This document shows positions 11,238-59,476 of a DNA stretch of 64,000 bases, piece after piece. Made by a program: the position numbers and the translations under genes. The stretch's first letter is position 1. Each line of letters opens with the position of its first letter. The stretch comes from Rhizomys pruinosus (Eukaryota > Chordata > Mammalia > Rodentia > Spalacidae): NCBI GenBank assembly GCA_009823505.1, contig VZQC01013302.1, positions 5,993,523 through 6,057,522 of the forward strand, read 5' to 3'. The notes beneath the pieces are model-generated. The model saw nothing but the letters and a program-made list of their open reading frames with translations. It ran no database searches and was not told the DNA's origin.

Positions 11238-11602
11238 TGTGGTGGTTTGAATGAGTGTCTCCCCATAGGCTTTAAGTATTCAGACATTTTGTCTCCAGTT
11301 GGTGGCACTGGTCTTGGATGTCTTAGAAGGTGTGGCTGTTCTGGAGGAAGTACGTCATTGGGAGGCAAGCTTAGTGAATTTAACAAGCCTTGCAGGCTCC
11401 AACTTCTAGCTCTCTCTGATTCCTGTGCTCATTGTAAGATGTGAACCTCGGCTTGCTACTCCAGGTCCAGCCGCCATGCCTCCCACCACAATGGACTCTA
11501 ATTCCCTGGAACTGTCAATTTTAAGCTGAAATAAACTCTTCCTTTTATAAGTTCCCTTACTCATGATGGTTTTATCACAGCAACAGAAAAGTGACTAATA
11601 CA
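11238..11602 (+). mobile_element. MaLR 5' LTR
   Basis: It starts 'tgtggtggtttgaatgagtg', has an AATAAA at about 11531 ('gaaataaactcttcc') and ends 'agtgactaataca', so it has TG...CA termini. The same LTR occurs at 12972 and twice at 47.6-50.1 kb. MaLRs are non-autonomous ERVL-related elements. The subfamily is not resolved. Confidence 0.85.
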
Positions 11603-12971: not shown

Positions 12972-13278
12972 TGTGGTGGTTTGAATGAGAGTGTCCCCCC
13001 ATATGCTTTAAGTATTTAGACATTTTGTCTCCAGTTGATGGCCCTGTTCTTGGAGGTCTTAGAAGGTGTGGCTGTGCTGAAGGAAGTACATCATTGGGGG
13101 CAGGATTAGTGAGTTTAACAAGCCTTGTGGTCTCCAGCCTTTTGCTCTCTCTGCTTCCTGTGCTCATTGCAAGACGTGAACCTCGGCTTGCTGCTCCAGG
13201 TCCAGCTGACATGCCTCCCACCATAATGGACTCTAATTCCCTGGAACCGTCAATTGTAAGCTCAAATAAACTCTTCTT
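12972..13278 (+). mobile_element. MaLR 3' LTR, first part
   Basis: It is homologous to 11238-11545 and runs to 'ctcaaataaactcttctt', where it stops at a T run. The missing last ~80 bp of the LTR appears at 17899-17981. The sequence between looks like one retroposed insertion. Confidence 0.8.
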
Positions 13279-13285
13279 TTTTTTT

Positions 13286-14352
13286 ATTTGTCTCATTATA
13301 TTTATTCATCAAAACCATAAACTGATGGGTCTAGAAATGGTACATGTGGCAAAAACTAGAGAATTTAGGAAAACATATGAATATTTACCTTGAGAAATTA
13401 AATGAGAAACATTGAGAAAGTTTGATGAGCATTGTCAAATATCATTGGTTTAATCATATAGGATGATATTAAAATATAGAAGAAAATTTAATTAGTATTT
13501 CTTATGTTTTTATCGGTTCAAGATGCTCGACTAACTTGCATAGGCAAAATGAGGAGATAGATATTCAATTTTTTCATATATCACCGTTTTAGCACAATAG
13601 AATAAGGAAACCACATTTAAATAAAAGTGAATTCTATGACAAATTAAAAAGCCTCATACTAGGAAAATATGACAGTGTTCCATGAGGACTTATTTGGGTT
13701 TTGATAAATTGAATTTATTCATATTTTAACGCATGGAATAATAGATATTCATGGAGAAATTTGAGGAACAAATTTGGAATTACTCATTAGTTCTTAGGTT
13801 TATAAATTACAGGGGAGCAAGAAAAAGAAACCATAATATCTTCATTTTTCTCCTCATTAACAGGAATTAATGTAAGAGAAGTGGATTACCCTCATGTTAA
13901 AAGAAAAGAAAGAAGACAAACTCAAAACTCACTGTGAGTAAACCCTTCAAGGGAAGATTTTACATTGGAAAAATGTTGGAAGTGGATGTCCATAACAGAA
14001 AAGAAACATGCAAATAAAATGGAATAAAAGGTACACATTGTACAAAATCACATTGTCAGCATAAAGTATTGCAGTCTCATGCAGCTCTTTTACTACTGAC
14101 TAATAACTAATAAACACTTTGGGAAAGAAATTAAATCCAATGAAGTACAATTTATTTCTTGAGTTCTATGGAACTACCTGTGAGATAATTTTTAGTGTTA
14201 TAAATCTCATCAGAAATGCACCAGAATAATGGGAAATTGAACTAAAGAACAAATATAAGTGTTATGTATCCCCTTAAGTCAACATAAAAGTCAGTGAGTA
14301 TATTTGAATAAAAACGAATAAACAAAGCATGCTGAAATTTTCATATCTGCAG
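13286..14352. other. Non-repeat flank carried with the L1; upstream region of the OR fragment
   Basis: No SINE, LTR or L1 was recognised. On the plus strand it leads into 'atatctgcag' just before the ATG at 14353, a splice acceptor of the kind found before OR coding exons. So it is probably intron or 5' flank of the OR source gene. Confidence 0.5.
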
Positions 14353-14514
14353 ATGGAGAACACGTTAAAAGAGAAAATATCAAATACCGCAACAATGACA
14401 GAATTTATTCTTCTGGGATTTTCTGATATTCCCCGACTCAAGTGGCTTCTGTTTAGGATAATTTTCCTCCTGTACCTGTCTATTCTAGTGTGCAACAGCA
14501 CTATAATTTTATTT
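14353..14514 (+). pseudogene. Olfactory receptor, N-terminal ~54 codons only
   Basis: The ATG at 14353 (a second in-frame ATG lies at 14329) starts a frame reading 'TMTEFILLGFSDIPRLKW', the extracellular N-terminus typical of class II olfactory receptors. A hydrophobic TM1 follows with 'FLLYLSILVCNSTIIL'. The usual Gly-Asn of TM1 is Cys-Asn here. The frame then runs into antisense L1 tail at about 14513 and stops at 14704. None of TM2-TM7 (no MAYDRYVAIC, no PMLNPFIY region) appears in the window. It cannot make a receptor. An OR exon is clear; the subfamily is not assignable. Confidence 0.85.
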
Positions 14515-16840
14515 ATTTATTTTTTAATTGATGCTTTGTGTATTTCATACATCATTTTCCAATTCAGTTCAGGCATATATCCCCTTCCCTTCCCCCCACC
14601 CCACCTCTACCCATCCCAGATCATGCAATCTGCTGTAAGTTTTCTGCATCTTTCTCTGCTTTTTTGTTTTGTTTTCATTTTTTTAACAATAAGTGATAAT
14701 TTGTGAGTACAAGCATCCTTCATGTAAAACCAATTTGCAAGCAGTTGTGCCCAAACCACCCCAGCTCATGGGTTCCACCATCCAGCATGGGGGCTTGTAT
14801 GTTCAAACAAGTTGATCAAATGAGTGTCCAATCTATATTATTGTAGTTTCACCATTAACCCCAATTGCAGCCCTTACATTCTACCACACCCCCTCTTCCG
14901 CGGATTGTTCCCTAGGCTTAGAAAAGGATGAGAAGCAAAACAGTCTACTTTCTCTGGAGCTGTTGTCTTGGTCTCTAGTCAATTCTGGCTGTTATCTTTC
15001 ATGGGCTGCCAGCCTGTCCAGGCATAATCTTTCGATCCTACTAATGAAGCACATGCAATTAGATATATAGGTTTAAACAGTATATATATAGCCTTCTTGA
15101 TCCTATAATGAAGGCACACACGCAATAAAGACTATGAGTATTTAAACAGGACGTAATTGTTGGTAGGTTCTTGGTATAGACACAGATGTGTTGGATGGTA
15201 TGTTAATTTCTGAATTACATTTTCTTCTGTTAAGTATGCAGGGTCTTCGTGGTGTTATAACATCTCATCAACATTAGAGGATGTAAGACTTGTGCATCAG
15301 CCTGGGTCATTCCTTCCAAGGAGAGAAGCCAATAGCAACTAATTTGGGATAATACAGACATATGGCTGCCCACTGCTGCACAGTTTTTCCGGCGGTGAGT
15401 GGAGGTGTGCTGGTGCTGACGGAGAGTTCTTGCTTGACTCAGGAGACCTATATTTTGGCTTGTATTGTTTATTTAGTGGCCTTTGGTAGACACTCGATCT
15501 GGCTTTGCAGAAGACCATATGTATCTTGCAAGTTGCATTCCTATACACATTTCCCATGTTTATATCATGGTCTTCATACAGCAGGGCCTTATCGCCTCTC
15601 TTCCTGATATATCAGTTTGAGGCAAGGAGCCTTTACCTTTTGTGGGGGCCTTGATACCCTGCCAACAATCTCCTTGGCTAGAATAATCATTGTTGATTGT
15701 CAGAGCTCTAGTATAATATATTTTGTTACTGCAATAGCTTTAAGGAGACTTCTACGCACTATATTTGTGTCTGATAGAGAATAATCCCTTCTAGGATTTC
15801 GTACTGTCCATTAGTCAATTAAGAAGGCAGCTTTACTTGATTTACAGAGAATACCTACTAACAGCTGGTCTACATCTACAGTGGAGAAGTGAACCTCATC
15901 AGTCGTCATACTTCTCTCCTTGTTCTATGAGGGGGGGTAAGAAAAGTCTCCTTGTATTAAACCTTTGCAGCACCTAGAAGGCAAACTTCGTTAGGAATCA
16001 TTAAAAATAGTTGTTACTGGAAGATCCAAAGAGGGGCCATGTCGCAGCAGCATGATGGCATCTCTCCCCACTCACTGCTCTACATGTCGAGGAGTCTCAT
16101 GACAACCGTCTCTTGAGCACTCTGCGTAACCTCTCTGCAAAGCCGCGACCTCTCTCCTCAGCCATCAAGTTCTGGTGACACTTCTGGCCTGTTGGAGAGA
16201 ATACAAATCTCTTCCCGTAGTTAGTTTTAAGATTTGGGTTGCAAGGTTTTTTGAATTTTCATGTTCTATCTATACCCTTTTTATTTTAAGGATTTTAATT
16301 TTTGACCATGAGTCATACATGTAGGTTGGAATCAAGGGCACAGTTTCATCAAGTTCACCCATAGCTGTTTTGGATTAACTGTAATGGTTGATTACTTGGG
16401 AAACAACGCGTTATTTTTGGGTAGGTTCATCTATCATCTGTCCTAATAGGATACATATGATAGTTTATGTAACCACATACGTCCTAGTTTATGCTATTGA
16501 CGGCATTAATTATAGAGAACTTTGTTTATACCAATCCCAAATATTGTGTATATCAATTTTAATCTAAAAGTAATGTGGACAACAGTAAAATTTATATTCA
16601 CCAATTAACTCAGATGCATTATACTGTTTTTATCAGCCCTCAAACCAATGTTGTCCAATTGCACATATTTAGCTTTTCTAAATCCTAGAAATTATGTATC
16701 CTGTAGAAGAGTCTCCGGCAAAAGCTGCCTGTCTATACTGTGTTGAATCACTCAATTAAAACATGGCACCAATCGAAGTATGACACCGTTGTCCCTCTCC
16801 ATCACCACATCCCACCCGTCCCAGTACCACTTTCAGTCAG
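14513..16840 (-). mobile_element. L1 3' UTR, long type
   Basis: This antisense copy is homologous to 27380-29640 and 57303-59476. Shared marks on the plus strand include 'tgatgctttgtgtatttcat' (3' end), 'aatctgctgtaagttttctg', 'tcactgctctacatgtcgag' (diverged) and 'aactcagatgcattatactg'. It contains a tandem ~60-bp duplication near 15030-15150. Many small indels relative to the other copies suggest poor base quality. Confidence 0.85.
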
Positions 16841-16844
16841 CCAT

Positions 16845-17895
16845 CATATGTAAAAGTCAGTTCCAAATGGATCAAAGAACCTCAACGTGAAATCTAAAAT
16901 CTGGAGGTGATAGAGGAAACTTGGCAGCAGACTACAGACGTAGGTCGTAGGAAAAGACTTCTTAATCAGACAAAGCTGGCAAGAAATAAGGTCGTATTTG
17001 CACAAATGGGACCTCTTTAAACTCAAAAAAGCTCGTAATAGTAAACATTAGAAAATGAAGAGGAAACAAAAGGAGGAAATGCCAAGACCACGTAGAATGA
17101 GACCAGTCTCAGCGATAACGTTACCAATAGCATATCACGGTAGCTACTCAACCCTAAACAAATAGAAGAAAGAAGACAAATATCACTCAGAAGATGGAGC
17201 AAAGTCTGACACAGAGTTCACAGAGGAGATAAGAGATCTTTTTACGGTGAGCGACACCTTAAGAAATTTGAACACTCAGCTAATTATTAAGGAAGACAAT
17301 ATAATAAACACCGGTAAGATATGCATCTTAAAAACTCATAGAATGCTAGATCAAAGAAAACAAATATAGCCAAGTGCTGGAAGTTGTGGGGGAAGAGGAA
17401 CACTCATCCCTTATGCTGTGGGAATGTAAACCTTGGCACGACCTATGGAAAACAGTGTGGAGAACCGTTTAGAGACTCAAAATGAGATCCTGCCATTTGA
17501 TTCCATATACCATCTGGTATATACCCACTTAGGATCAATTCTATACAGGAGATACAGATGCACAGCTATATTTATTGCCATCTCAGTTCACAATAGCAAA
17601 AAACTGGAGCCAACCCAAATGCCCCCACTGGATGAGTGGATAGAGAAAATGTGGTACAGTACACAATGGAGTAATCTATGCAGCAGTAAAGAAAGACAAC
17701 ATCAATAACTTTGTAGGATAATGGATGGAGCCTCGAGAGACATCATGTTAAGCTGAGTACAACCCAAAAGCAAGCGACAAATGGTATCCTCATATATTGG
17801 ATCTCAGCTACCATAACCGCAGTTTATATATAATCATTTCTTGTCGTGAGAGGGATCATTAAGAAAGACAACAACAGAAAAGATTGCATCAGAAG
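16845..17895 (+). pseudogene. L1 ORF2 C-terminal segment, inverted relative to its 3' UTR
   Basis: The sense strand shows 'tccaaatggatcaaagaacc', 'ttgcacaaatgggacctctt', 'gtatatacccacttaggatc' and, in the frame at 17433-17708, '[16 protein letters not shown]'. All are late ORF2. It ends near 17890 at 'gattgcatcagaag', the start of the 3' UTR, where the antisense block also ends. Opposite orientation with touching L1 coordinates shows twin priming. Frameshifts are dense. Confidence 0.8.
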
Positions 17896-17898
17896 GCT

Positions 17899-17981
17899 GA
17901 ACTAGAAATCAAATCCTCTGTTTATAAGTCTTCTCTTGGCATGGTGGTTTTGATCCAGCAACATAAAAGTGACTGAATACA
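17899..17981 (+). mobile_element. MaLR 3' LTR, last part
   Basis: 'tttataagtcttctcttggc', 'atggtggttttgatccagca' and 'aaaagtgactgaataca' match the last ~80 bp of the LTR at 11520-11602, with small indels. It probably completes the LTR begun at 12972. Confidence 0.65.
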
Positions 17982-26171: not shown

Positions 26172-26646
26172 GTAGACTGTTTTGCTTCTCATCCACCTGG
26201 ACCCCTTTTCTAAGCCTAGGGAACAATCTGCGGAAGAGGGGGCACACTAAAATGTAAGGGCTGCGATTGGGATGAATGGTGAAACTACAACAATATAGAC
26301 TGGACACTCATTTGATCAACTTGATTGAACATACAAGCCCTCCCTGCTGGATGGTGGGACCCATGAGCTGTGTGGGTTTGGGCACAACTGCTCGCAAATT
26401 GGTTTTACATGAAGGATGCTTGTACTCACAAATTATCACTTATTGTTAAAAAAATGAAATAAAAAACAAAACAAAACAAAACAGAAAGATGCAGAAAATT
26501 TACGGCAGAATGCATGATCTGGGATGGGTAGGGGTGGGGTTTGGGGAAGGGAAGGGGATATATGCCTGAACTGAACTGGAAAATGATGTATGAAATACAC
26601 AAAGCATCAATAAAAAAATAAATAAATAAAATAAAATTAGCATTAA
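26172..26646 (+). mobile_element. L1 3' UTR insertion, long type, strongly 5'-truncated
   Basis: A 475-bp piece homologous to 29190-29640: 'gttttgcttctcatccacct', 'gaacaatctgcggaagaggg', 'gcatgatctgggatgggtag', a G-rich tract and an A-rich tail with AATAAA. The TSD copies sit directly at both ends. Confidence 0.9.
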
Positions 26647-30706: not shown

Positions 30707-30769
30707 ATGTCCATTTAACTCAGTAATCTAAGAAAAGTGACCAAATAAAAAATGGACAAGGTATTGAGT

Positions 30770-31400
30770 ATATTTCTGTGACAATTTTCCTCTCGTCTTT
30801 AATATTTTCGCAGAAAAAATTGATAAATAGCCCATAAGTATGTGAAAGAATATTAAAATCATTATACATTAAATAAATGTAAGTTAAATATATAGTTACC
30901 TATAACTAAAAATAGAAAATAGCAAGTTTTGATAAAGATGTGGGGAAATTATGACTTTTAGATACTGCTGGTGAGTATATAACATGGTGTAACCACTTTG
31001 ATAAATAGACTGACAATTCCTCAAAATGTTACTTTTGCTACTTCGGTATCTTCTTCAAAGAATTGGAAGTTTATTGATCCAAGTGCATAAATTAATATAA
31101 TTACATAAATAATTAATTCTTAAATTTATTTTTGGTCATTATGATTGGGTGATTTTTTTTATTTTTTTATTCCCATATAGTGGAATATTGTTTTATAATG
31201 AAGTTATGAAGTACTGCTATATGCTAGAACAGAGAAAACTAAGAACCATCTGCCAAGAAACATCAAGGAAGTATAACAAGTCACATATTATATACTTATA
31301 TGCATGTCCAAAAGAAGTAAATCTGTGGAGACAGAAGTTATATTAGAAATTTCCAGAAGTTGAAAGGAATGTGAGTACTATTGAGAAATAATATATATTT
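30770..31400 (+). mobile_element. Ancient L1M fragment (ORF2 end)
   Basis: 'aatagcccataagtatgtga', 'gataaagatgtggggaaatt', 'gatactgctggtgagtatat' and 'tcccatatagtggaatattg' follow the order of the C-terminal ORF2 region of old mammalian L1M elements. Heavily mutated. The copy in unit B is at 36119-36749. Confidence 0.7.
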
Positions 31401-31549
31401 GGAGGTACTGAAAATGTTCTAAAAGTACATTTTAGTGACATTTACTCAACTGTATGAATGTAATTGAACCATTGAATCATATATTTTGAATGAGTGAAAT
31501 TTACTGTGGTTAACTATGAAAAGATGCTTTATGTCTATGTCATCAGAGA

Positions 31550-32025
31550 AACCGAATTAAAATGACATTAACACACTACCAGCTAACCTTTAGAATGATG
31601 AAAATAGAAATATCAGGAAACCATGAATACTGACAGTAACATAAACTAGAATTCCCATTCATTGATACTTGGAATAAAAGTGATGCAGCAACTTTGCGAG
31701 ATAGATTAATAGTTTCACACAAAACAAGTATATACATACCTTGTTTTGGAGCAGTGTTCTCAAAGGAGTTTACCAAAACTTGGAAATAACCAAGATGTTC
31801 GTCAATAAGCAAATAGATGAACTGTGGTTTCTGCAAATAATGGAGAATTATTCAAAACTAAATGGAAATGAGCTTACATGACATTAAGAAAATAAGGAAA
31901 ATTTTTCAATTATGCTCCCAAGTGAAGAATAGACATGAACTACACACTGAACAATCCTAAGTGTATGATATTGTGGAGAAGGGAAACTATAAGGACATTA
32001 AAAACTCAGTTGCTGTCAGGTGTTA
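31550..32025 (+). mobile_element. Ancient L1M fragment
   Basis: 'aaaacttggaaataaccaag', 'agcaaatagatgaactgtgg' and 'ggagaattattcaaaactaa' match the old L1M end of ORF2, partly overlapping the previous fragment in L1 coordinates, so it is a separate insertion. The copy in unit B is at 36899-37374. Confidence 0.7.
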
Positions 32026-32288
32026 GAGTATATAGCTGGTGTCAAAATTAAGCTTTGATCAATGGAGGACTTGGAGCAATGGATCTGGATCTGACTTGGA
32101 AGCCTGCTCCTTAAAGATTAGCTCTTGTGATTTCAGAGGATAGTATAAAGCTGCGAAGGAAGAAAATCAATCAATGGCACAACACAGCAGCAAAGCCTAA
32201 TAACCACAACTATGACTGGCAGTGAAAACTATCCTGTTGGTGCGTTAGTGACACTTTTATCTTGGAAGTAATAAATGTCTAATTAGAT

Positions 32289-32536
32289 TTTTTTAATTTT
32301 TTTTTATTTTATTTCTGTATGTGTATGAATGTACTGTATGCATGCACGTCTGTGCACCCGTGTCGTGCAACGCCGCGGAGGTCAGAAGAGGGTCTCGGAT
32401 TCCCCTGGAACTGGAGTTCTCCTGGAATTGGAGTTTCAGACGGTTCTCGGCCGCCATGTGGGTGCTCGGGATCGCACCTGGGTCCTCTGTAAGAGCGGTC
32501 AGCGCTCTTAATCGCTAGGCCATCTCTCCAGCCCAC
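32289..32536 (-). mobile_element. B2 SINE, antisense, young-looking
   Basis: Full length with clear head 'aggccatctctccagccc' and intact CpG sites. Perfect 16-bp target-site duplication 'aaatgtctaattagat' at 32273-32288 and 32537-32552. Confidence 0.97.
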
Positions 32537-32559
32537 AAATGTCTAATTAGATGTAAAGC

Positions 32560-33440
32560 CCAGCCAATGAGATGGAACTCATGGCTGGAGAATTCATAGA
32601 TGTTAGAGAAAACACTACACTGGTCACATCCCTAGAAAAATGTAAATTCTTATTTTATTCTAAACGTATAATCCTTATATTTAAAGACAATTTTACACCT
32701 CACCACTCATCATGAAGTTTCTTTTGTAACTGATGGAGACAATTATAGAGTTGCAGAATTGGTCAAACATAGAGAACAATTATCTGTGAGATGTCCCACA
32801 CAATATGACACATCTACAATGCAACCTCCATACCTAAGACTCAGGAAAACTTACGAACTAGTAGCAGAGAGACTATTAAGAGAGACTATTAATGCATCTC
32901 CCAACTCTCATCAATGAAGTTTCCTCATGGAAAAGAAAGTGATTAAAAGAATAAAGCCACAACTGCCTAAATTGTAGAGAAGAGATTGCAGATTCTTACA
33001 TTAAACTTCTGCCACTCAAGGCCAAGAGAACACTGCAGAATAAAGAGTGTAAAGGTGCTTATATGAACTTACAGCAATGGTGACACAATGCACCAGACAC
33101 ATGCAAGCTCAAACCAGACAAACCCCAGCATAGAAGTGGGGAAATCAGTAAGAAGCCACAATTTTAGCTGAGGAACTACTGGCAACTTGTTACTGCTGGT
33201 CTAGGGAGAGTTGATATTCTTTAATGAGGTGATGCTAGATTGGTTGATGAGGCTCTAGGAGATGAACTCACTCTGAAGGATATTGGGGTACAGAAACATA
33301 TCACTATGTGTCTTAATATATATGACAGAATTCATGGAAGCCAATGGGAGATATTGGGGTTCAGGTAAGGGAGACATTCTAAATATTATCAATATATGTT
33401 ATATGAAATATATGAAAGTTCAATAAAAAATAAAATAAGT
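32560..33440 (+). mobile_element. Rodent L1 (Lx-like) 3' region
   Basis: 'catacctaagactcaggaaa' and the surrounding order match 430-640 and 45595-45660. The end near 33300-33440 ('gacagaattcatggaagcca', 'agttcaataaaaaataaaat') is an L1 3' end. The copy in unit B is at 37909-38789. Two elements may be merged here. Confidence 0.5.
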
Positions 33441-33715
33441 TGAAAATAGCAAGATGTAAATAAATGGATAAATTGGGAGAAAATGTGCAACAAGTTAAGA
33501 TGTGCAAACCCAGAAACTATTACACATAAAATCATTCTTAGAGGATTTTCCGCATAATGTTGTCTTATTGTAACTGCTGCAAAATCTAGGCTTAAGTTAT
33601 ATTCCACTTCTATGCACAGAAAAGGAGATATCTCCCAATACTAACATTCAGCATCAAGATATTATTTATTGAGGGACTGACTATATCCTTGAGGCAGTGT
33701 GTCTTGTTAGACCTT

Positions 33716-34122
33716 TGTGCTGGATAGCTTTAGTGTCAACTTGGCACACCTGGATTGAGGGAGCCTCAATTGGGAAACTGGCTCCATTGGATTGGCCTGT
33801 GGTCACATCTGTGGAGTATTATCTTGATGGTCGAGCAGAGTGGGAGAGCCCAGCTCATAATGAGTAGTGCCACCCTGGGCAGGTTATTGTGTACGGTATA
33901 AGAAGGCAGGCTGGGCATGAGCCAGGGGAGCAAGCCAGTGAACAGCACTCCTCCATGGCTTGTGCTTCAGCTTCTGCTTCCAGGTTCCTGCCCTGAGTAC
34001 TTGCCTTGGGCTCCCTGAGTGAGAACTGTGACTCAGAAGATGTAAGCTGAATAAACCGTTTCCTCCCCAAGTTGGTGTCAGTCAGAGTGTTTTGTCACAG
34101 CAATGGAAGACAAACTAGAACA
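33716..34122 (+). mobile_element. Solo LTR, MaLR/ERVL type
   Basis: 407 bp with TG...CA ends: 'tgtgctggatagctttagtg' to 'agacaaactagaaca'. It has 'gctgaataaaccgtttcctc' as polyadenylation region. The 5-bp duplication 'acctt' at 33711-33715 and 34123-34127 fits ERVL-type integration. No internal sequence. Confidence 0.85.
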
Positions 34123-34127
34123 ACCTT

Positions 34128-34912
34128 CTACAAAGGAAGTATTAAAATCAAATTAAGAATATATAGAAGGATATTAATTAATCCACATTTGGAGTATAGA
34201 TTTTTTTTTATTTCTAGCCCCTTCTCCTGTTAGTTTATCAATGTACCAAAAATTCACTAAGTCCTTCTGATTTTCTAAGTCTCTTGTGCATAAAGTGCTG
34301 ATTAAATAGACTTATATTTTAGATCAGTTCTCTTAAATACTGAAGGGAAGACATCAAATTTCTCCAACAGTGAAACTACTCTGTACGTTAGTATAGTAGA
34401 AGCAAGCATTTGGTCACATATTTTCTCAAACCCACAATTTGCACTATTAAAATTAAACAATAATGTAGACTGTGGACTTTAGTTAACACTGAATATAAAT
34501 ATATATTCACCAAGTATAGCAAACATTTCACTGTGCGGTAAGATGATCAGGGTTACTATACATATTTCTTGAAGAAGCTACATGAGAAATCTCCATATTT
34601 TTCTTTACTTATGCTGCAAGAATAGGACCACTCTAAAGAACAAAAAAGTGTACATATGTTAATATTTTGTGATATTGGGGTAGACAGTATTTTTAGATAG
34701 AAAAATAGTAAATGAAAGGAAAACAATACAAATTTATTTCATCAAAACTAAAACTAAAGAAAAGAACAAACCTAAAGTATACAACTCTGATTATAAAAGC
34801 ACCACTAATTATTGGAAAAAGTAAAATCACATATTAGGTAAAATATTTGTAAAATGTATAGTGGTCAAACTACATATAATCATATATGTATATATTTTTA
34901 TTTATTATTATT
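34128..34912. other. Unassigned AT-rich DNA
   Basis: No repeat or exon recognised. It is duplicated at 39477-40261. Confidence 0.3.
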
Positions 34913-34913
34913 A

Positions 34914-35064
34914 TTTTTGGTCTTTTCGAGACAGGGTCTCCATATAGCCCCAGCTGTCCTGGAATTCACTCTGTATACCAGGCTGGCCTTGAACTCACAA
35001 AGATCTGCCTGCCTCTGCCTCCCAAGTGGTAGGATTAAAGGAGTGTGCCACGACGCTGGGCTGA
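34914..35064 (-). mobile_element. B1 SINE, antisense
   Basis: 'cttttcgagacagggtctcc', 'tcctggaattcactctgtat', 'ccaggctggccttgaactca' and 'gtgccacgacgctgggct'. Full length. Confidence 0.95.
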
Positions 35065-35604
35065 GGAAATCATGGCTTAAAGAACAATGTGGACATAATA
35101 TCTGTCCAGTTGTTGTATTATATTTGGGATGTTATACATGTCAATTTATGTAGGAGGTAGAACATACTTAAATACTTTCTTAGATTTATTTATAACATAA
35201 GTATTTGAACATTGTGATATGTGGGTTACCCTCTATTTTTATTGTTGTGCTAGGTTATGTGTTAAGAGTGGGTCAGGGCTCTATTATAATAAAATATCTA
35301 TTTTGATTTTGTTTATATTAATGGAAGAGTGAAGGTTTCTAAACACATTTTTCATACATTAAAGGGCACAAACTTCAAATGTACACTTTGATGGGTTTTG
35401 ATTAATACACAACCCAGAATGACTGCCAGAAAATGAATACATTAAAGTATCTCAATTCTGTCTCCCTAGAAAGTTCTTTTTGTTCTCTTTCTGACACATA
35501 ATCACCTTAATCATTGATGCATTCTTATTTCTAAAACCATAGGTGAGTTTTATTCTAGAATTTAATATAAAAAACTGTGAAGATACAAATTTTGTGTTTG
35601 TTCC
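35065..35604. other. Unassigned DNA up to the gap
   Basis: Possibly old L1 or unique sequence; nothing firm is seen. It ends at 'tttgtgtttgttcc' against the N run. Confidence 0.3.
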
Positions 35605-35732
35605 NNNNNNNNNNNNNNNNNNNNNNNNNNNNNNNNNNNNNNNNNNNNNNNNNNNNNNNNNNNNNNNNNNNNNNNNNNNNNNNNNNNNNNNNNNNNNNNN
35701 NNNNNNNNNNNNNNNNNNNNNNNNNNNNNNNN
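35605..35732. other. Assembly gap (128 N)
   Basis: A run of 128 undetermined bases. Left of it is unit A. Right of it is antisense L1 ORF2. Confidence 1.
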
Positions 35733-36108
35733 TTTTAGCTGCAGTGTTAGATCATTCACTTGTGCTCTTTCTGTTTTTTTAATGTAGGCACTTAGAGCTA
35801 TAAACTTCCCTCTTAGGATTGCTTTTAAAGTGTCCCATAGATTTTGCTGTGTTGTTTTATCATTGTCATTCAGTTCCAGGAATGTTTTTATTTCTTTTTT
35901 TATTTCTTCCTTGACCCACTCATTATTCAGGAGAGTGTTGTTTAGTCTCCATGTGTTCCTGTAGGTTGTAGGGTTTATTCTGGTGTTGATATTGAGTTTT
36001 ATTGCACTGTGGTCTGATAGAATGCATGAGATTATTTCAACCTTTTTATATTTGTTGAGTTTTTCCCTGTGTCCCAGTATATGGTCTATTTTGGAGAATG
36101 TTCCATGA
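35733..36108 (-). pseudogene. L1 ORF2 fragment, end of endonuclease domain and linker
   Basis: On the minus strand the frame includes '[17 protein letters not shown]', '[18 protein letters not shown]' (the Ser-Asp-His of the APE-type endonuclease) and '[16 protein letters not shown]'. It is closely related to 62815-63215. The open frame is unbroken for this stretch, so the element is young. It breaks at 36108 against unit B sequence, a typical 5' truncation point. The 3' part of the element is lost in the gap. Confidence 0.9.
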
Positions 36109-37637
36109 GGTATTGAGTATATTTTTGTGACAATTTTCCTCTCGTCTTTAATATTTTTGCAGAAAAAATTGATAAATAGCCCATAAGTATGTGAAAGAAT
36201 ATTAAAATCATTATACATTAAATAAATGTAAGTTAAATATATAGTTACCTATAGCTAAAAATAGAAAATAGCAAGTTTTGATAAAGATGTGGGGAAATTA
36301 TGACTTTTAGATACTGCTGGCGAGTATATAACATGGTGTAACCACTTTGGTAAATAGACTGACAATTCCTCAAAATGTTACTTTTGCTACTTCGGTATCT
36401 ACTTCAAAGAATTGGAAGTTTATTGATCCAAGTGCATAAATTAATATAATTACATAAATAATTAATTCTTAAATTTATTTTTGGTCATTATGATTGGGTG
36501 ATTTTTTTTATTTTTTTATTCCCATATAGTGGAATATTGTTTTATAATGAAGTTATGAAGTACTGCTATATGCTAGAACAGAGAAAACTAAGAACCATCT
36601 GCCAAGAAACATCAAGGAAGTATAACAAGTCACATATTATATACTTATATGCATGTCCAAAAGAAGTAAATCTGTGGAGACAGAAGTTATATTAGAAATT
36701 TCCAGAAGTTGAAAGGAATGTGAGTACTATTGAGAAATAATATATATTTGGAGGTACTGAAAATGTTCTAAAAGTACATTTTAGTGACATTTACTCAACT
36801 GTATGAATGTAATTGAACCATTGAATCATATATTTTGAATGAGTGAAATTTACTGTGGTTAACTATGAAAAGATGCTTTATGTCTATGTCATCAGAGAAA
36901 CCGAATTAAAATGACATTAACACACTACCAGCTAACCTTTAGAATGATGAAAATAGAAATATCAGGAAACCATGAATACTGACAGTAACATAAACTAGAA
37001 TTCCCATTCATTGATACTTGGAATAAAAGTGATGCAGCAACTTTGCGAGATAGATTAATAGTTTCACACAAAACAAGTATATACATACCTTGTTTTGGAG
37101 CAGTGTTCTCAAAGGAGTTTACCAAAACTTGGAAATAACCAAGATGTTCGTCAATAAGCAAATAGATGAACTGTGGTTTCTGCAAATAATGGAGAATTAT
37201 TCAAAACTAAATGGAAATGAGCTTACATGACATTAAGAAAATAAGGAAAATTTTTCAATTATGCTCCCAAGTGAAGAATAGACATGAACTACACACTGAA
37301 CAATCCTAAGTGTATGATATTGTGGAGAAGGGAAACTATAAGGACATTAAAAACTCAGTTGCTGTCAGGTGTTAGAGTATATAGCTGGTGTCAAAATTAA
37401 GCTTTGATCAATGGAGGACTTGGAGCAATGGATCTGGATCTGACTTGGAAGCCTGCTCCTTAAAGATTAGCTCTTGTGATTTCAGAGGATAGTATAAAGC
37501 TGCGAAGGAAGAAAATCAATCAATGGCACAACACAGCAGCAAAGCCTAATAACCACAACTATGACTGGCAGTGAAAACTATCCTGTTGGTGCGTTAGTGA
37601 CACTTTTATCTTGGAAGTAATAAATGTCTAATTAGAT

Positions 37638-37885
37638 TTTTTTAATTTTTTTTTATTTTATTTCTGTATGTGTATGAATGTACTGTATGCATGCACGTCT
37701 GTGCACCCGTGTCGTGCAACGCCGCGGAGGTCAGAAGAGGGTCTCGGATTCCCCTGGAACTGGAGTTCTCCTGGAATTGGAGTTTCAGACGGTTCTCGGC
37801 CGCCATGTGGGTGCTCGGGATCGCACCTGGGTCCTCTGTAAGAGCGGTCAGCGCTCTTAATCGCTAGGCCATCTCTCCAGCCCAC
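37638..37885 (-). mobile_element. B2 SINE, antisense (unit B copy)
   Basis: Identical counterpart of 32289-32536 with the same 16-bp target-site duplication. Not an independent insertion. Confidence 0.97.
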
Positions 37886-39064
37886 AAATGTCTAATTAGA
37901 TGTAAAGCCCAGCCAATGAGATGGAACTCATGGCTGGAGAATTCATAGATGTTAGAGAAAACACTACACTGGTCACATCCCTAGAAAAATGTAAATTCTT
38001 ATTTTATTCTAAACGTATAATCCTTATATTTAAAGACAATTTTACACCTCACCACTCATCATGAAGTTTCTTTTGTAACTGATGGAGACAATTATAGAGT
38101 TGCAGAATTGGTCAAACATAGAGAACAATTATCTGTGAGATGTCCCACACAATATGACACATCTACAATGCAACCTCCATACCTAAGACTCAGGAAAACT
38201 TACGAACTAGTAGCAGAGAGACTATTAAGAGAGACTATTAATGCATCTCCCAACTCTCATCAATGAAGTTTCCTCATGGAAAAGAAAGTGATTAAAAGAA
38301 TAAAGCCACAACTGCCTAAATTGTAGAGAAGAGATTGCAGATTCTTACATTAAACTTCTGCCACTCAAGGCCAAGAGAACACTGCAGAATAAAGAGTGTA
38401 AAGGTGCTTATATGAACTTACAGCAATGGTGACACAATGCACCAGACACATGCAAGCTCAAACCAGACAAACCCCAGCATAGAAGTGGGGAAATCAGTAA
38501 GAAGCCACAATTTTAGCTGAGGAACTACTGGCAACTTGTTACTGCTGGTCTAGGGAGAGTTGATATTCTTTAATGAGGTGATGCTAGATTGGTTGATGAG
38601 GCTCTAGGAGATGAACTCACTCTGAAGGATATTGGGGTACAGAAACATATCACTATGTGTCTTAATATATATGACAGAATTCATGGAAGCCAATGGGAGA
38701 TATTGGGGTTCAGGTAAGGGAGACATTCTAAATATTATCAATATATGTTATATGAAATATATGAAAGTTCAATAAAAAATAAAATAAGTTGAAAATAGCA
38801 AGATGTAAATAAATGGATAAATTGGGAGAAAATGTGCAACAAGTTAAGATGTGCAAACCCAGAAACTATTACACATAAAATCATTCTTAGAGGATTTTCC
38901 GCATAATGTTGTCTTATTGTAACTGCTGCAAAATCTAGGCTTAAGTTATATTCCACTTCTATGCACAGAAAAGGAGATATCTCCCAATACTAACATTCAG
39001 CATCAAGATATTATTTATTGAGGGACTGACTATATCCTTGAGGCAGTGTGTCTTGTTAGACCTT

Positions 39065-39471
39065 TGTGCTGGATAGCTTTAGTGTCAACTTGGCACACCT
39101 GGATTGAGGGAGCCTCAATTGGGAAACTGGCTCCATTGGATTGGCCTGTGGTCACATCTGTGGAGTATTATCTTGATGGTCGAGCAGAGTGGGAGAGCCC
39201 AGCTCATAATGAGTAGTGCCACCCTGGGCAGGTTATTGTGTACGGTATAAGAAGGCAGGCTGGGCATGAGCCAGGGGAGCAAGCCAGTGAACAGCACTCC
39301 TCCATGGCTTGTGCTTCAGCTTCTGCTTCCAGGTTCCTGCCCTGAGTACTTGCCTTGGGCTCCCTGAGTGAGAACTGTGACTCAGAAGATGTAAGCTGAA
39401 TAAACCGTTTCCTCCCCAAGTTGGTGTCAGTCAGAGTGTTTTGTCACAGCAATGGAAGACAAACTAGAACA
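39065..39471 (+). mobile_element. Solo LTR, MaLR/ERVL type (unit B copy)
   Basis: Identical counterpart of 33716-34122, with the same 'acctt' duplication. Confidence 0.85.
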
Positions 39472-40262
39472 ACCTTCTACAAAGGAAGTATTAAAATCAA
39501 ATTAAGAATATATAGAAGGATATTAATTAATCCACATTTGGAGTATAGATTTTTTTTTATTTCTAGCCCCTTCTCCTGTTAGTTTATCAATGTACCAAAA
39601 ATTCACTAAGTCCTTCTGATTTTCTAAGTCTCTTGTGCATAAAGTGCTGATTAAATAGACTTATATTTTAGATCAGTTCTCTTAAATACTGAAGGGAAGA
39701 CATCAAATTTCTCCAACAGTGAAACTACTCTGTACGTTAGTATAGTAGAAGCAAGCATTTGGTCACATATTTTCTCAAACCCACAATTTGCACTATTAAA
39801 ATTAAACAATAATGTAGACTGTGGACTTTAGTTAACACTGAATATAAATATATATTCACCAAGTATAGCAAACATTTCACTGTGCGGTAAGATGATCAGG
39901 GTTACTATACATATTTCTTGAAGAAGCTACATGAGAAATCTCCATATTTTTCTTTACTTATGCTGCAAGAATAGGACCACTCTAAAGAACAAAAAAGTGT
40001 ACATATGTTAATATTTTGTGATATTGGGGTAGACAGTATTTTTAGATAGAAAAATAGTAAATGAAAGGAAAACAATACAAATTTATTTCATCAAAACTAA
40101 AACTAAAGAAAAGAACAAACCTAAAGTATACAACTCTGATTATAAAAGCACCACTAATTATTGGAAAAAGTAAAATCACATATTAGGTAAAATATTTGTA
40201 AAATGTATAGTGGTCAAACTACATATAATCATATATGTATATATTTTTATTTATTATTATTA

Positions 40263-40413
40263 TTTTTGGTCTTTTCGAGACAGGGTCTCCATATAGCCCC
40301 AGCTGTCCTGGAATTCACTCTGTATACCAGGCTGGCCTTGAACTCACAAAGATCTGCCTGCCTCTGCCTCCCAAGTGGTAGGATTAAAGGAGTGTGCCAC
40401 GACGCTGGGCTGA
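40263..40413 (-). mobile_element. B1 SINE, antisense (unit B copy)
   Basis: Identical counterpart of 34914-35064. Confidence 0.95.
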
Positions 40414-41039
40414 GGAAATCATGGCTTAAAGAACAATGTGGACATAATATCTGTCCAGTTGTTGTATTATATTTGGGATGTTATACATGTCAATTTATGT
40501 AGGAGGTAGAACATACTTAAATACTTTCTTAGATTTATTTATAACATAAGTATTTGAACATTGTGATATGTGGGTTACCCTCTATTTTTATTGTTGTGCT
40601 AGGTTATGTGTTAAGAGTGGGTCAGGGCTCTATTATAATAAAATATCTATTTTGATTTTGTTTATATTAATGGAAGAGTGAAGGTTTCTAAACACATTTT
40701 TCATACATTAAAGGGCACAAACTTCAAATGTACACTTTGATGGGTTTTGATTAATACACAACCCAGAATGACTGCCAGAAAATGAATACATTAAAGTATC
40801 TCAATTCTGTCTCCCTAGAAAGTTCTTTTTGTTCTCTTTCTGACACATAATCACCTTAATCATTGATGCATTCTTATTTCTAAAACCATAGGTGAGTTTT
40901 ATTCTAGAATTTAATATAAAAAACTGTGAAGATACAAATTTTGTGTTTGTTCCTCAGTGAAGGCCTTCTCAGCTTTATCTATGTTGGTACACATATGTTT
41001 GATATTATAAATTAATTATCAATTCATGTTTTACTAATT

Positions 41040-47985: not shown

Positions 47986-49490
47986 GTTATTGGTACCGAG
48001 AGTGGGGTGTTGGCTGTGAACAACCTGACCATTTGTATGTTGGAGAAGTGTGGAAGACTTTGGAACTTTGGGCTGGAAAGGCTGTTGACTATTGTAAGCA
48101 GAGCTTAAAGGGCCATTCTAGTGGAGGCCTGGAAGAAAGCATGGCTGCAAAAGATGTGGTTCCAGGGGAAAATAAAGACTTAGGCAGCAACTGGGATATT
48201 TTGATAAAGAGTCTGGCAGCAGTTTGCCCGCAGCCCAAATGCTTGCCTGATGCTAAGTTGAAAAGCAATGGACTGATGTCTTTGGCAGAGGATATTTCAA
48301 GACAGTCTAATGTAGAAATGGTGGCGTGGGCTTTTAATGGTGAATATTGTCACTATTACAGTGAAGAAGAGCAAATGTGGGGCAGAAAGAAATGCAGAAA
48401 TGTACAGTTTGGATCTGATTAACTGCACTAGGATGATTAAAGGTGGGGCTAAGGTTTGTGAAGGAGAGTTTCCTTTGGATAAGGAGATTAAAGTGATTAA
48501 GGATTAGGGCCCGAGATTTAACAAACAAACAAAAATCATACTTTCAGGGCAAGACCACACCCACTAAAAGCTCTCTAAGCTATTGAAGGCTAAGTGGAGA
48601 AATTGTGAAATGTGGTTGAAATAGGCCCAGTCCATCCCAAATTGCAGCCAAACTCGGCAGTTTCATTCACGCGGATGACTGGATTTGAGGCATGAAGTTT
48701 GCAAGAAGTGAAGGGGTCACCAGTTCTTCCTTCCTATGGTTTCAGAGAGCTGCAGAGGTCCAGGCAGAGTAAGCAGTGGTGTCCCTGCATAGAAGTAGGC
48801 CTGATAGGCCATTGCATGTGAAGGCTGCGAATGTGAAGCCTGGTTGGAACGAAAATCCGCGATAAACGATTCTAGATTGGCCAGAGTCTGTGAGATATTG
48901 CCAGGGATAGCTGCATACAGGGAGGCTGACAGCCTAAAAAGATAGATGTAGCTGCAAGCAAAGCTGGAAGAGCATGAACCATCTAAGCCCTTTGAAAGTC
49001 AGATCCCAAAAGTCGCACATGTGAACTACTGGCTTGGTTTTGCACTGCTGCGGTTCGGTCTTGTGTTTGATTCCAGTGTTTCCCTCACTATGCCTCCTAT
49101 TCCTCCCTTTTTGGAATGGAATCGTGTATTGGTTCCACTGTATGTTGGGAGTTAGTAATTTGCCTTTTGATTTTACAGGAGCTTACAGTTAAGAGATTGG
49201 CCTGAGTCTCGAAGAGACTTTGGACTGTGACTTTTGAATAGGCTTGAAACTGTAAAGACTATGGGGACTTACTTTTAAGGTACTAAATGCATTGTTATTT
49301 GCATTTTTTTTTTGGACAAAATATTACTACATATAATTAACTTTTTTTATAACCATTAAAAGTTTTCCTTTTTTTTCCACATAAATTTATTTTTATTTAT
49401 TTGTTAACAAATCTAGACCCGTGTTCCTGCTCTTTCCCAGCAATTTTGCATTTTAAATGGTCAGGAGCCTATAGGGGCTAGGGAGAGGAA
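47986..49490 (+). mobile_element. MaLR internal region (second element)
   Basis: Begins 'gttattggtaccgagagtgg' and follows 11603-12971 in order. The 129-codon frame at 48033-48422 is the counterpart of that at 11656. The part 48560-49290 has many one-base indels relative to the first element. A short antisense L1 3' end (about 49291-49440) is inserted near the right end. Confidence 0.85.
49291..49440 (-). mobile_element. L1 3' end fragment inserted in MaLR internal
   Basis: 'ccacataaatttatttttat' and 'acaaatctagacccgtgttc' match the L1 tail region at 46342-46390. The first MaLR lacks this block, so it is a later insertion. Confidence 0.7.
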
Positions 49491-50143
49491 TATGGTGGTT
49501 TGATGAGTGTCCCCCATAGGCTCTAGGTATTCAGACATTTGGTCTCCAGTTAGTGGCGCTCTTTTTTGGAGTTCTTGGGGTGTGTGGCTGTGCCAGAGGA
49601 AGTGCGTTGTTGGGGGCAGGCTTAGGGAGTTTTTTTTTTTGTTTTTTTTTTTTTTTTTGGAAATATATATTTTATGAAAAATTTCTTTTTTTTAACATTT
49701 CTTTTTTTATTGATGCTTTGTGCATTTCACACATCATCCTCCAACTCAGTTCAGGCATTATTTCCCCCCTCCCCAGCCCACCCAACCGAGATCATGCATT
49801 CTGCATAACTGTCCTGCATATTTCTCCTCAGGTTTTTTTTTCATTGTTTTAAGGGCTTATAAGTGATAATCCATGAGTACAAGCATTCTTAATACACACA
49901 ATCTCAGGCTGCCGTGCCGAAACCCCCACATCCCCAGCCTCGTGGTCTCCAGTCTCCCTCTCTGCTTCCTTTGCTCTTTGCGAGATGTGACACTCAGCAT
50001 GCTGCTCCATGATCCCCACCATGCCTCCTGCCACAATGACCTCTAATTCCCTGGAACCGCCAATCCTTAGCTCAAATATACTCTTCTTTTATAAGTTCTT
50101 GGCATGGTGGCTTTATAACAGAAACAGAAAACTGACTAATACA
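49491..50143 (+). mobile_element. MaLR 3' LTR, split by an L1 3' end
   Basis: LTR sequence runs 49491-49630 and about 49939-50143, ending 'aaactgactaataca'. 'gcatg' follows at 50144-50148 and matches 47603-47607, so this is the 5-bp target-site duplication of the whole provirus-like element. Confidence 0.88.
49631..49938 (-). mobile_element. L1 3' UTR tip, long type, inserted in the LTR
   Basis: A T run is followed by 'attgatgctttgtgcatttc', 'cagttcaggcattatttccc', 'aagtgataatccatgagtac'. This is the terminal ~280 bp of the long-type 3' UTR. Confidence 0.8.
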
Positions 50144-57302: not shown

Positions 57303-59476
57303 TTCTTTTTTATTTCTTTTTTTCTCTTTATTTTTTCATTTTTTGACAATAAGAAATAATTTATGAGTACAAGCATCATTCATGTAAAACCAATTTTCAA
57401 GCAGTTGCGCTCAAACCCACACAGCCCAAGGGTCCCACCATCCGGATGGGGGGGGAGGCTTATATGTATAATCAAGTTCATCAAATAAGTGTTCAGTCTA
57501 TATTGCTGTAGTTTCACCATTCACCCCAATTGCAACCCTTACATTCTATCACTCCCCCTCTTCTGCAGATTGTTCCCTAGGCTTAGAAAAGGGGCACAGG
57601 TGGACAAGGGGCAAAACAGTCCACTTTCACTGGAGCTGTTGTTTTGGACTCTGGTCAATTCTGGCTTTTCCTTTTATGGGCTGACAGTTTGTCCAGGAAT
57701 AACCTTTCAGTCCTACTAATAAAGCACAAGCAATTAGATACATAGGTATTTAAACAGTACTAATTGTTGTGGTAGGTTACTTTGGTGAAGACACAGATGT
57801 TTGGATGGTATGTTAATCCATGGATTACATTTTCTTCTGTTAAGTATGACAGGGTCTTCCTGTGGTTTATAACATCTCCTAACCACTAGAGGATGTAAGC
57901 TTGTGGCATCAGCCATGGGTTATTCCTCTAAGGAGAGAGCTAATAGCCAATTAGTTTTGGGATATACAGATATATGGCTGCAACTGATGCACAATATTTC
58001 CAGGAAGGTGAGGTGTAGCTGGTGCTGACGGAGGAGACTTGCTTGACTCAAGGAAACCTATATTTGCTTTGTTGGTTTAGTGGCTTTTGGTAACACTCTC
58101 TGGTATACCAGAGTCCAACTGTGCACTTGCAAGTGAGGTCTCAATACATCTTTCCCATTCTTACATCAGGTCTTTGACAGCAGGGCCTTATCATCTCTCT
58201 TCTTGCGGGTATCCCAGTTTACAGGCAAGAAGTCTTTCCCTTTTTTTTTGGGTGGGGGGGGCCTTGGATCGACTGGTCAACATCTCCTTGGCAGAATAAT
58301 CCAATGCTGATATCAGAGCAGTCCTGTATTAATATATTTTGCTTAAATGCACAGCTTAAGGAGACTTTAGTATTATATTTGGTTCTGAATAGAGAATAAT
58401 ACTTTTCACAGTTTCTATGTCTAATTAGTAAATTATAGAAGGCAGTTTTACCATTTTTATAAGTTATTACCTCTATAACAGTTGGCTCCAATTTACAGTT
58501 GGAGAACTACCTCATCATCATCATCATATTCCTCCTTGTTCTATGAAGGGGAGGTAAGAAAGTCGCTTGTATTAAAACTTTGTGGCACTTAGAAGGTAAG
58601 TTTCATTAGGACTCATTATAAACAGTTGTTACAAGCAGGATCCACAGAGGGGTTTGATGCCTGTAGCAGTCTGATGCTTTTCTTCCTTTCAATGTTCATA
58701 TGGGCCAACCTTTCTGCTGGTACTTCCTGGTACATCCTACAAAATGCAAATTTTTATCTTTTCTTTCTAGTTGGTGACATATTGACCTGTGGGAACATCC
58801 AAATCTTTTCATGTAGTTAGTTTTAAGATTTAAAATGCAAAATTTTTGAAAAAAAGGTTTCAATATGTCTGTATCCCCCCTTTTTATTTTAGATAATGAC
58901 CCATGAGTCTCAAAAAGGCAGTTGTAGTACACATACCTATAGGCAGGAATCAAGGCACAGATTTCATCAAATTCACCCAAGCTGTTTTGGGTGACTGTAT
59001 GTCATTAACATGGGAAGCAAATTTAATTCCTTAATTTAAATCATCCTACAGGTAAAAGAAAATGCTACAAGATAATACTGTACAACAGAAAAATTATAGA
59101 GAACATTCGTATGTGCCAATCCCAAAGTTATTGTTATACAGATTTTAAGTAAAACAAATGTGGACAACAACAATTTATATTTCCAATTAACTCAGATGCA
59201 TTACCGTTTTTATCAAAACCTTTAAACCAATGTCATTTAATATACACATATTTACTTTTACTAAATCCTAAAACACCATGTAACCTATAGATAGAGTCTG
59301 GGCATAATTGGATACTTGTTGAACTCACATCAATTAAACACACATTAATCAAATATAGACCCATGTCCCTCTCCCACCCCTCCCAATTCACCATTTCCTT
59401 CAGTTTCCTGATGCAGACTTTCTGTTGTTGTTCTTTTAATATGAATCCCTCTCCAGAAGACATATTTACAACTGGG
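57303..59476 (-). other. Extended L1 3' UTR (~2.2 kb)
   Basis: It directly follows the ORF2 stop and matches 27380-29640 and 14513-16840. Near the ORF2 side it contains a G-rich tract ('gggaggggtgggagaggg' on the minus strand, about 59355-59375) of the kind that normally ends an L1. About 1.9 kb of other sequence follows. No domain is recognisable in the short frames inside. Confidence 0.85.

Follow-up and report, generated by a model that had tools for sequence, protein, structure and literature searches.

L1 retrotransposons move the DNA downstream of them by 3' transduction, and both this process and L1-borne exon movement are established. Exon shuffling by L1 was reportedly described by Moran and colleagues in 1999. 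L1 endonuclease prefers to nick after TTTT and before A. Partnered transductions have been defined, and two A tails were recorded in 72% of them (PMC13009371). The twin-priming model addresses 5' inversion, which was present in 165 of 897 human germline L1 polymorphisms, and TTTT/A is counted among L1 endonuclease sites (PMC12016303). Here, we analyze a window of 64,000 nucleotides from Rhizomys pruinosus (C3316:5993523-6057522) in which an LTR is interrupted by an insert that is very probably the product of L1 retrotransposition with partnered 3' transduction in a single event. Like a partnered transduction, the insert has a tailed L1 3' end, unique DNA downstream, and a second signal and tail, together with a target-site duplication, an L1-type nick, and a 5' inversion. 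It differs in carrying the start of an olfactory receptor (OR) exon in antisense and in having a source that was not found in the assembly. As in L1 exon shuffling, a piece of a host coding exon appears to have been relocated through L1 read-through, but the exon here is antisense and incomplete. A search of the open-access literature with limited terms, over titles and the beginnings of abstracts, returned no example of an OR exon moved by L1 3' transduction, and a search of that kind is weak evidence. We conclude that the insert is a new example of a known process and that the understanding of L1 is unchanged. What it provides, from one locus and a few genome searches, is a nearly complete case history of L1 read-through relocating part of a coding exon of a large gene family. 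The parts of the locus are as follows.

11238 to 11602, plus strand: upstream LTR, presumably of the same MaLR-like element, used as the uninterrupted reference (sequence matches to both halves)
12972 to 13280, plus strand: interrupted LTR, left part, as far as the nick TTTT/AT (LTR comparisons)
13264 to 13280, no strand: imperfect target-site duplication, left copy (13 of 17 bases identical to 17906-17922)
13277 to 13285, minus strand: A run ending the insert (9 T in plus-strand reading, about 4 of them the LTR's, from LTR comparison)
13286 to 14352, plus strand: putatively transduced DNA upstream of the OR coding exon (colinear with C2511:981706-980536, minus strand)
13301 to 13306, minus strand: AATAAA, candidate polyadenylation signal of the read-through transcript (motif scan; AATAAG in the paralogs)
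14353 to 14511, plus strand: putatively transduced OR codons 1-53, through TM1, antisense to the L1 (OR structures, tblastn, and the C2511 paralog)
14512 to 14530, minus strand: last L1 bases and the first, internal A-rich 3' tail (same 3' end in other copies)
14531 to 16814, minus strand: L1, non-inverted part (matches to other L1 copies in the window)
16852 to 17901, plus strand: L1, inverted 5' part, in twin-priming geometry (matches 60432-59399)
17906 to 17981, plus strand: interrupted LTR, right part, whose first bases (to 17922) are the right copy of the target-site duplication

The insert divides a single LTR. We take the LTR to be of the MaLR kind, as the initial annotation did, and the retrotransposon to be L1, in part by comparison inside the window. 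The LTR runs from 12972 to about 13280, resumes at about 17906, and ends at 17981, with about 4.6 kb between its halves. Against the upstream copy, 12972-13281 is 89% identical to 11238-11546 and 17905-17981 is 80% identical to 11528-11602, and the rejoined halves score 474 and 491 against the intact LTR for two choices of joint. An initial annotation of the window had already described an LTR whose missing tail lies further on, and the matches bear this out with edges now placed at about 13280 and 17906. The element's own 5-bp duplication, before 11238 and after 17981, is alike at 3 of 5 positions by eye, and so it is continuity alone that assigns the two halves to one element. The LTR pair has diverged by a K2P distance of 0.107. 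We note that the window has a further LTR of this kind at 49443-50143, which is likewise broken by an L1 3' fragment at 49697-49930, next to long T runs.

At 11.5 kb and 50.1 kb, intact LTRs show the empty target site as ...ACTCTTC(C)TTTT/ATAAG, and the insertion target fits the L1-type nick TTTT/AT. On the far side, the LTR resumes with the target duplication as the sole repeated part. The copies at 13264-13280 and 17906-17922 are identical at 13 of 17 positions, and 74 of 5000 random 26-mers from the window score equally well. A poor copy of the target words after the insert had been noted before; the present coordinates are a better placement for the duplication. The duplication and the nick are thus present, as in 3' transduction, but weak. 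The right copy sits in an error-laden stretch, which may explain why it is poor.

Aligned with the 29-kb copy across 15.1-16.8 kb, the insert L1 has 314 gap columns and the 57-kb copy has 118 when end gaps are included; identity at ungapped positions is no lower for the insert (92.3% versus 87.3%). In a three-way alignment, the fall begins near 15.1 kb, and the observed/expected CpG ratio is 0.44 in 15.0-18.8 kb versus 0.20 elsewhere in the window. Judged by its gaps and composition, 15.0-18.8 kb probably is unpolished sequence or an assembly error. A separate irregularity in the window is a direct duplication of 4846 bp (30759-35604 and 36108-40953, 99.88% identity), the first copy of which ends exactly at an N gap (35605-35732); it may be a spurious duplication that arose at the end of a contig.

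The L1 has the anatomy of a twin-primed insertion with an internal tail. Read on the minus strand from the right, the insert consists of inverted L1 (17901-16852), non-inverted L1 (16814-14531), an A-rich tail (14530-14512), 1.2 kb of other DNA, AATAAA, and an A run. Window positions 14508-16760 are 82% identical to the L1 at 29643-27408, and the inverted part, 16852-17901, is 72% identical to 60432-59399. Placed on the L1 copy at 57-60 kb, the two parts end at 59385 (non-inverted) and 59399 (inverted), with 13 bases between. The 5'-most L1 position of the inverted part faces the non-inverted part, and the inverted part adjoins the LTR. As in L1 twin priming, the junction of the two cDNAs corresponds to about one L1 position and the inverted part occupies the far, 5' side of the target; the minus-strand L1 with an inverted 5' end that had been proposed earlier is confirmed. 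The pieces differ in size from those of twin-primed human germline insertions, however, as the non-inverted part of about 2.3 kb and the inverted part of 1.05 kb exceed the medians of 571 and 751 bp (PMC12016303). The first tail, previously put at 14513-14530, lies at about 14512-14530, and two other copies in the window share this L1 3' end (at 26632 and 29643). When the L1/OR joint was compared with the genome, all 39 matches outside the window began at the L1 end (query 168-186, window 14502-14520), and 0 of the 39 continued into OR sequence among the best 40 of 1808 candidates scored. A true source would be expected to match the whole joint query and to rank high, though scoring the best 40 of 1808 leaves doubt. 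The L1 thus ends in a tail of its own inside the insert, as in 3' transduction. Finally, the L1 3' end lies at a K2P distance of 0.055 from the 29-kb copy, and the insert L1 is 97.8-99.1% identical to nine other copies in the genome over 227 aligned bases outside the error-laden stretch.

The DNA beyond the internal tail contains the start of an OR. Codons in 14383-14511 match OR structures, with eight matches at E <= 1 that are all to an OR or a consensus OR (best, 1.4e-6), and a tblastn search of the window with an OR probe gave E 3e-5 at the OR start, the only place with E below 0.01. An OR N terminus and TM1 are both present. The initial annotation had called an antisense OR start of 54 codons; the OR start holds, and its length is corrected to 53 codons. 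Pfam returned no family for the OR start or its extended frame, and a search of a collection of 5.8 billion proteins with the OR start gave five candidates, none at E <= 0.01. Because Pfam is silent, the OR identity rests on the structure and probe matches and, above all, on the comparisons with contig C2511 given below. The upstream DNA ends, immediately 5' of the ATG, in ...TTTTCATATCTGCAG, which we take to be splice-acceptor-like, and a closely similar stretch is found in the C2511 paralog. The segment is unspliced, and the 1.2 kb has no match elsewhere in the window at E 1e-4. As had been suggested, TM2-TM7 are not found nearby: in the window, the next-best OR probe match had E 0.04, and four later OR motifs were absent at 3-4 mismatches. 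The OR piece is therefore a fragment and not a gene, and it most likely is inert, as it lacks TM2-TM7.

The OR fragment is colinear with a gene elsewhere in the genome. A search of 3.67 Gb in 3921 contigs with 13286-14514 gave four matching places, the window itself included, and all four candidates were scored. Besides the window, these were C2511:980536-981703, which matches query 2-1226 at 67%, and two further pieces at C2511:968384-968556 (79%) and C2511:969388-969595 (70%). The first C2511 paralog is a full-length OR gene read with a stop and a frameshift. These fall about halfway along C2511:979764-980676 (minus strand), and the paralog is probably a pseudogene or carries sequence errors. 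The second locus is its tandem twin, identical at 200 of 202 and 746 of 752 bases in two parts with gaps excluded and 92% identical over the gene with indels counted. An OR probe detects only two parts of it, and with its indels the twin, too, is probably a pseudogene.

Window positions 13284-14511 are colinear with the first paralog from 1.1 kb upstream of the gene to about codon 53. Between 13200 and 14600, 956 of 1217 aligned bases are identical, and between 14300 and 14511, 168 of 191. Past 14511, the paralog proceeds into TM2 and the window into L1; at the other edge, the paralog proceeds into other DNA and the window has LTR. In our view, the strongest single test of the reading is that homology ends on each side no more than a few bases from the border of the proposed transduced segment. 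Unique non-L1 DNA lies directly 3' of the L1 and is colinear elsewhere, in paralogs and not in the source itself. The proposal in the initial annotation that L1 read-through moved the OR piece thus gains support from colinearity that ends at the L1 and LTR borders. The distance to the paralog is greater in noncoding DNA than in coding DNA, both by K2P (0.271 versus 0.151) and by differences counted (215/948 versus 20/151; Fisher p 0.0075). The lower divergence of coding DNA would be expected if the exon was copied from a gene that was under constraint and functional for much of the time since it separated from the paralog; constraint on the paralog would have the same effect. Set against the divergence of the LTR pair and of the L1 3' end, these distances suggest that the OR lineage of the insert and the C2511 pair had already separated well before L1 mobilization.

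How the putative transcript ended is indicated by the sequence at the left border. AATAAA at 13306-13301 on the minus strand precedes a T run of 9 at 13277-13285, in agreement with the AATAAA before a terminal poly(A) described earlier. The LTR's own TTTT occupies 13277-13280, however, which leaves about 5 of the 9 T that can be assigned to the tail with certainty. Both C2511 paralogs have AATAAG at the position of the signal, followed by 6 A and a T-rich stretch. These features make a polyadenylation site plausible in the source, and because of the 6 A, some of the insert's A run could be genomic. The insert thus has a signal and a second A tail at its far end, the tail being short and perhaps genomic in part. 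Earlier on the minus strand there are six further AATAAA, three of them within or at the L1 tail, as well as three ATTAAA, all of which read-through would have had to bypass.

We propose that, at the source locus, an L1 had inserted antisense into an OR coding exon after about codon 53. L1 transcription would have continued beyond the A-rich end of the element and crossed, in antisense, the OR start and about 1.1 kb of DNA upstream of it, and the transcript may have ended at the AATAAA, a signal that is present and whose use we suppose. The RNA would then have been copied at TTTT/AT in the resident LTR by target-primed reverse transcription, the established L1 pathway. Twin priming could have yielded the observed inverted 5' end, with duplication of the target; the order of these steps is our reconstruction. 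Against a single event, the A run (9, about 5 beyond the LTR) is short for an L1 so similar to nine other copies. As far as sequence can tell, the anatomy fits the event, though tail and target duplication are weak.

Perhaps, instead, two RNAs were joined, an antisense OR transcript being primed at the LTR before a switch to, or ligation with, L1 RNA, such that no L1 ever lay in the OR. An L1-bearing source OR was indeed not found in the searches made, and L1 chimeras arising through template switching or ligation have been documented (PMC13174262). In that source, however, the chimeras have foreign sequence 5' of L1, whereas here it lies 3' of a tailed L1 3' end; the pipeline used there examines the 5' side, so 3' joins are not excluded by it. 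Joining of two RNAs also requires an antisense OR transcript that ended at the same AATAAA, and we consider it unlikely.

Still less probable is that an OR fragment entered the LTR by any route and that an L1 later landed at its edge. Nothing was found in favor of such sequential insertions. At 17901-17906 the 5' end of the L1 adjoins the LTR without intervening OR sequence, so that the L1 would have had to land exactly where OR and LTR met; the OR piece, for its part, ends at the other LTR half in a polyadenylation signal and an A run. We hold it equally improbable that the assembly merged unrelated reads at the LTR, OR, or L1 borders. The excess of indels and the raised CpG in 15.0-18.8 kb, as well as the near-identical 4.8-kb duplication beside an N gap, could be taken as signs of such an artifact. 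The left joint and the L1/OR joint, however, both fall outside the stretch in which indels and CpG are raised, and one would not expect chance joins to produce LTR continuity, signal, tail, nick, and twin-priming geometry all at once. Single-event L1 retrotransposition with 3' transduction thus remains the preferred reading.

Where the transduced DNA came from was sought in the same genome. The initial annotation had suggested looking for a full OR gene matching 13286-14514 that carries the same antisense L1; such a gene exists in C2511, without the L1. Both the C2511 OR and its tandem twin are uninterrupted at about codon 53, and neither can therefore be the source. An OR copy with antisense L1 at about codon 53 was not found in the genome by the searches made, including the best 40 of 1808 candidates. 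A TM2-TM7 query taken from the paralog found only the C2511 pair to be close (41 matches; best 40 of 487 candidates). The next nine were 66-70% identical among the matches listed, and partial matches lower in the list had up to 73% identity across about 250 bases and 92% across 53 bases. As an L1-bearing source was not found, we infer the source locus, which may be lost, unassembled, or segregating. Tentatively, and with slightly more reservation than confidence, we suggest that the insert is the sole surviving record in the assembly of an OR paralog and the DNA upstream of it, a gene that an L1 disrupted and that subsequently was deleted or lost. A portion of an OR paralog that the assembly lacks is possibly preserved here, which suggests that transduced tags may record source genes no longer present in an assembly.

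Two other loci in the genome, L019 and L020, suggested a second case, with an OR piece adjoining an antisense L1 3' end and a closely similar piece on another contig. They were set aside, as the far edge of L019 has no A tail and its near edge continues into what appears to be the end of another OR. We take the two for related, rearranged OR pseudogenes, with L1 in one of them. They have in common a 364-bp piece of OR pseudogene that is 95.6% identical (L020, 1361-1890, on C2478; L019, 1389-1749, on C2085), and the L1 3' end is present only in L020.
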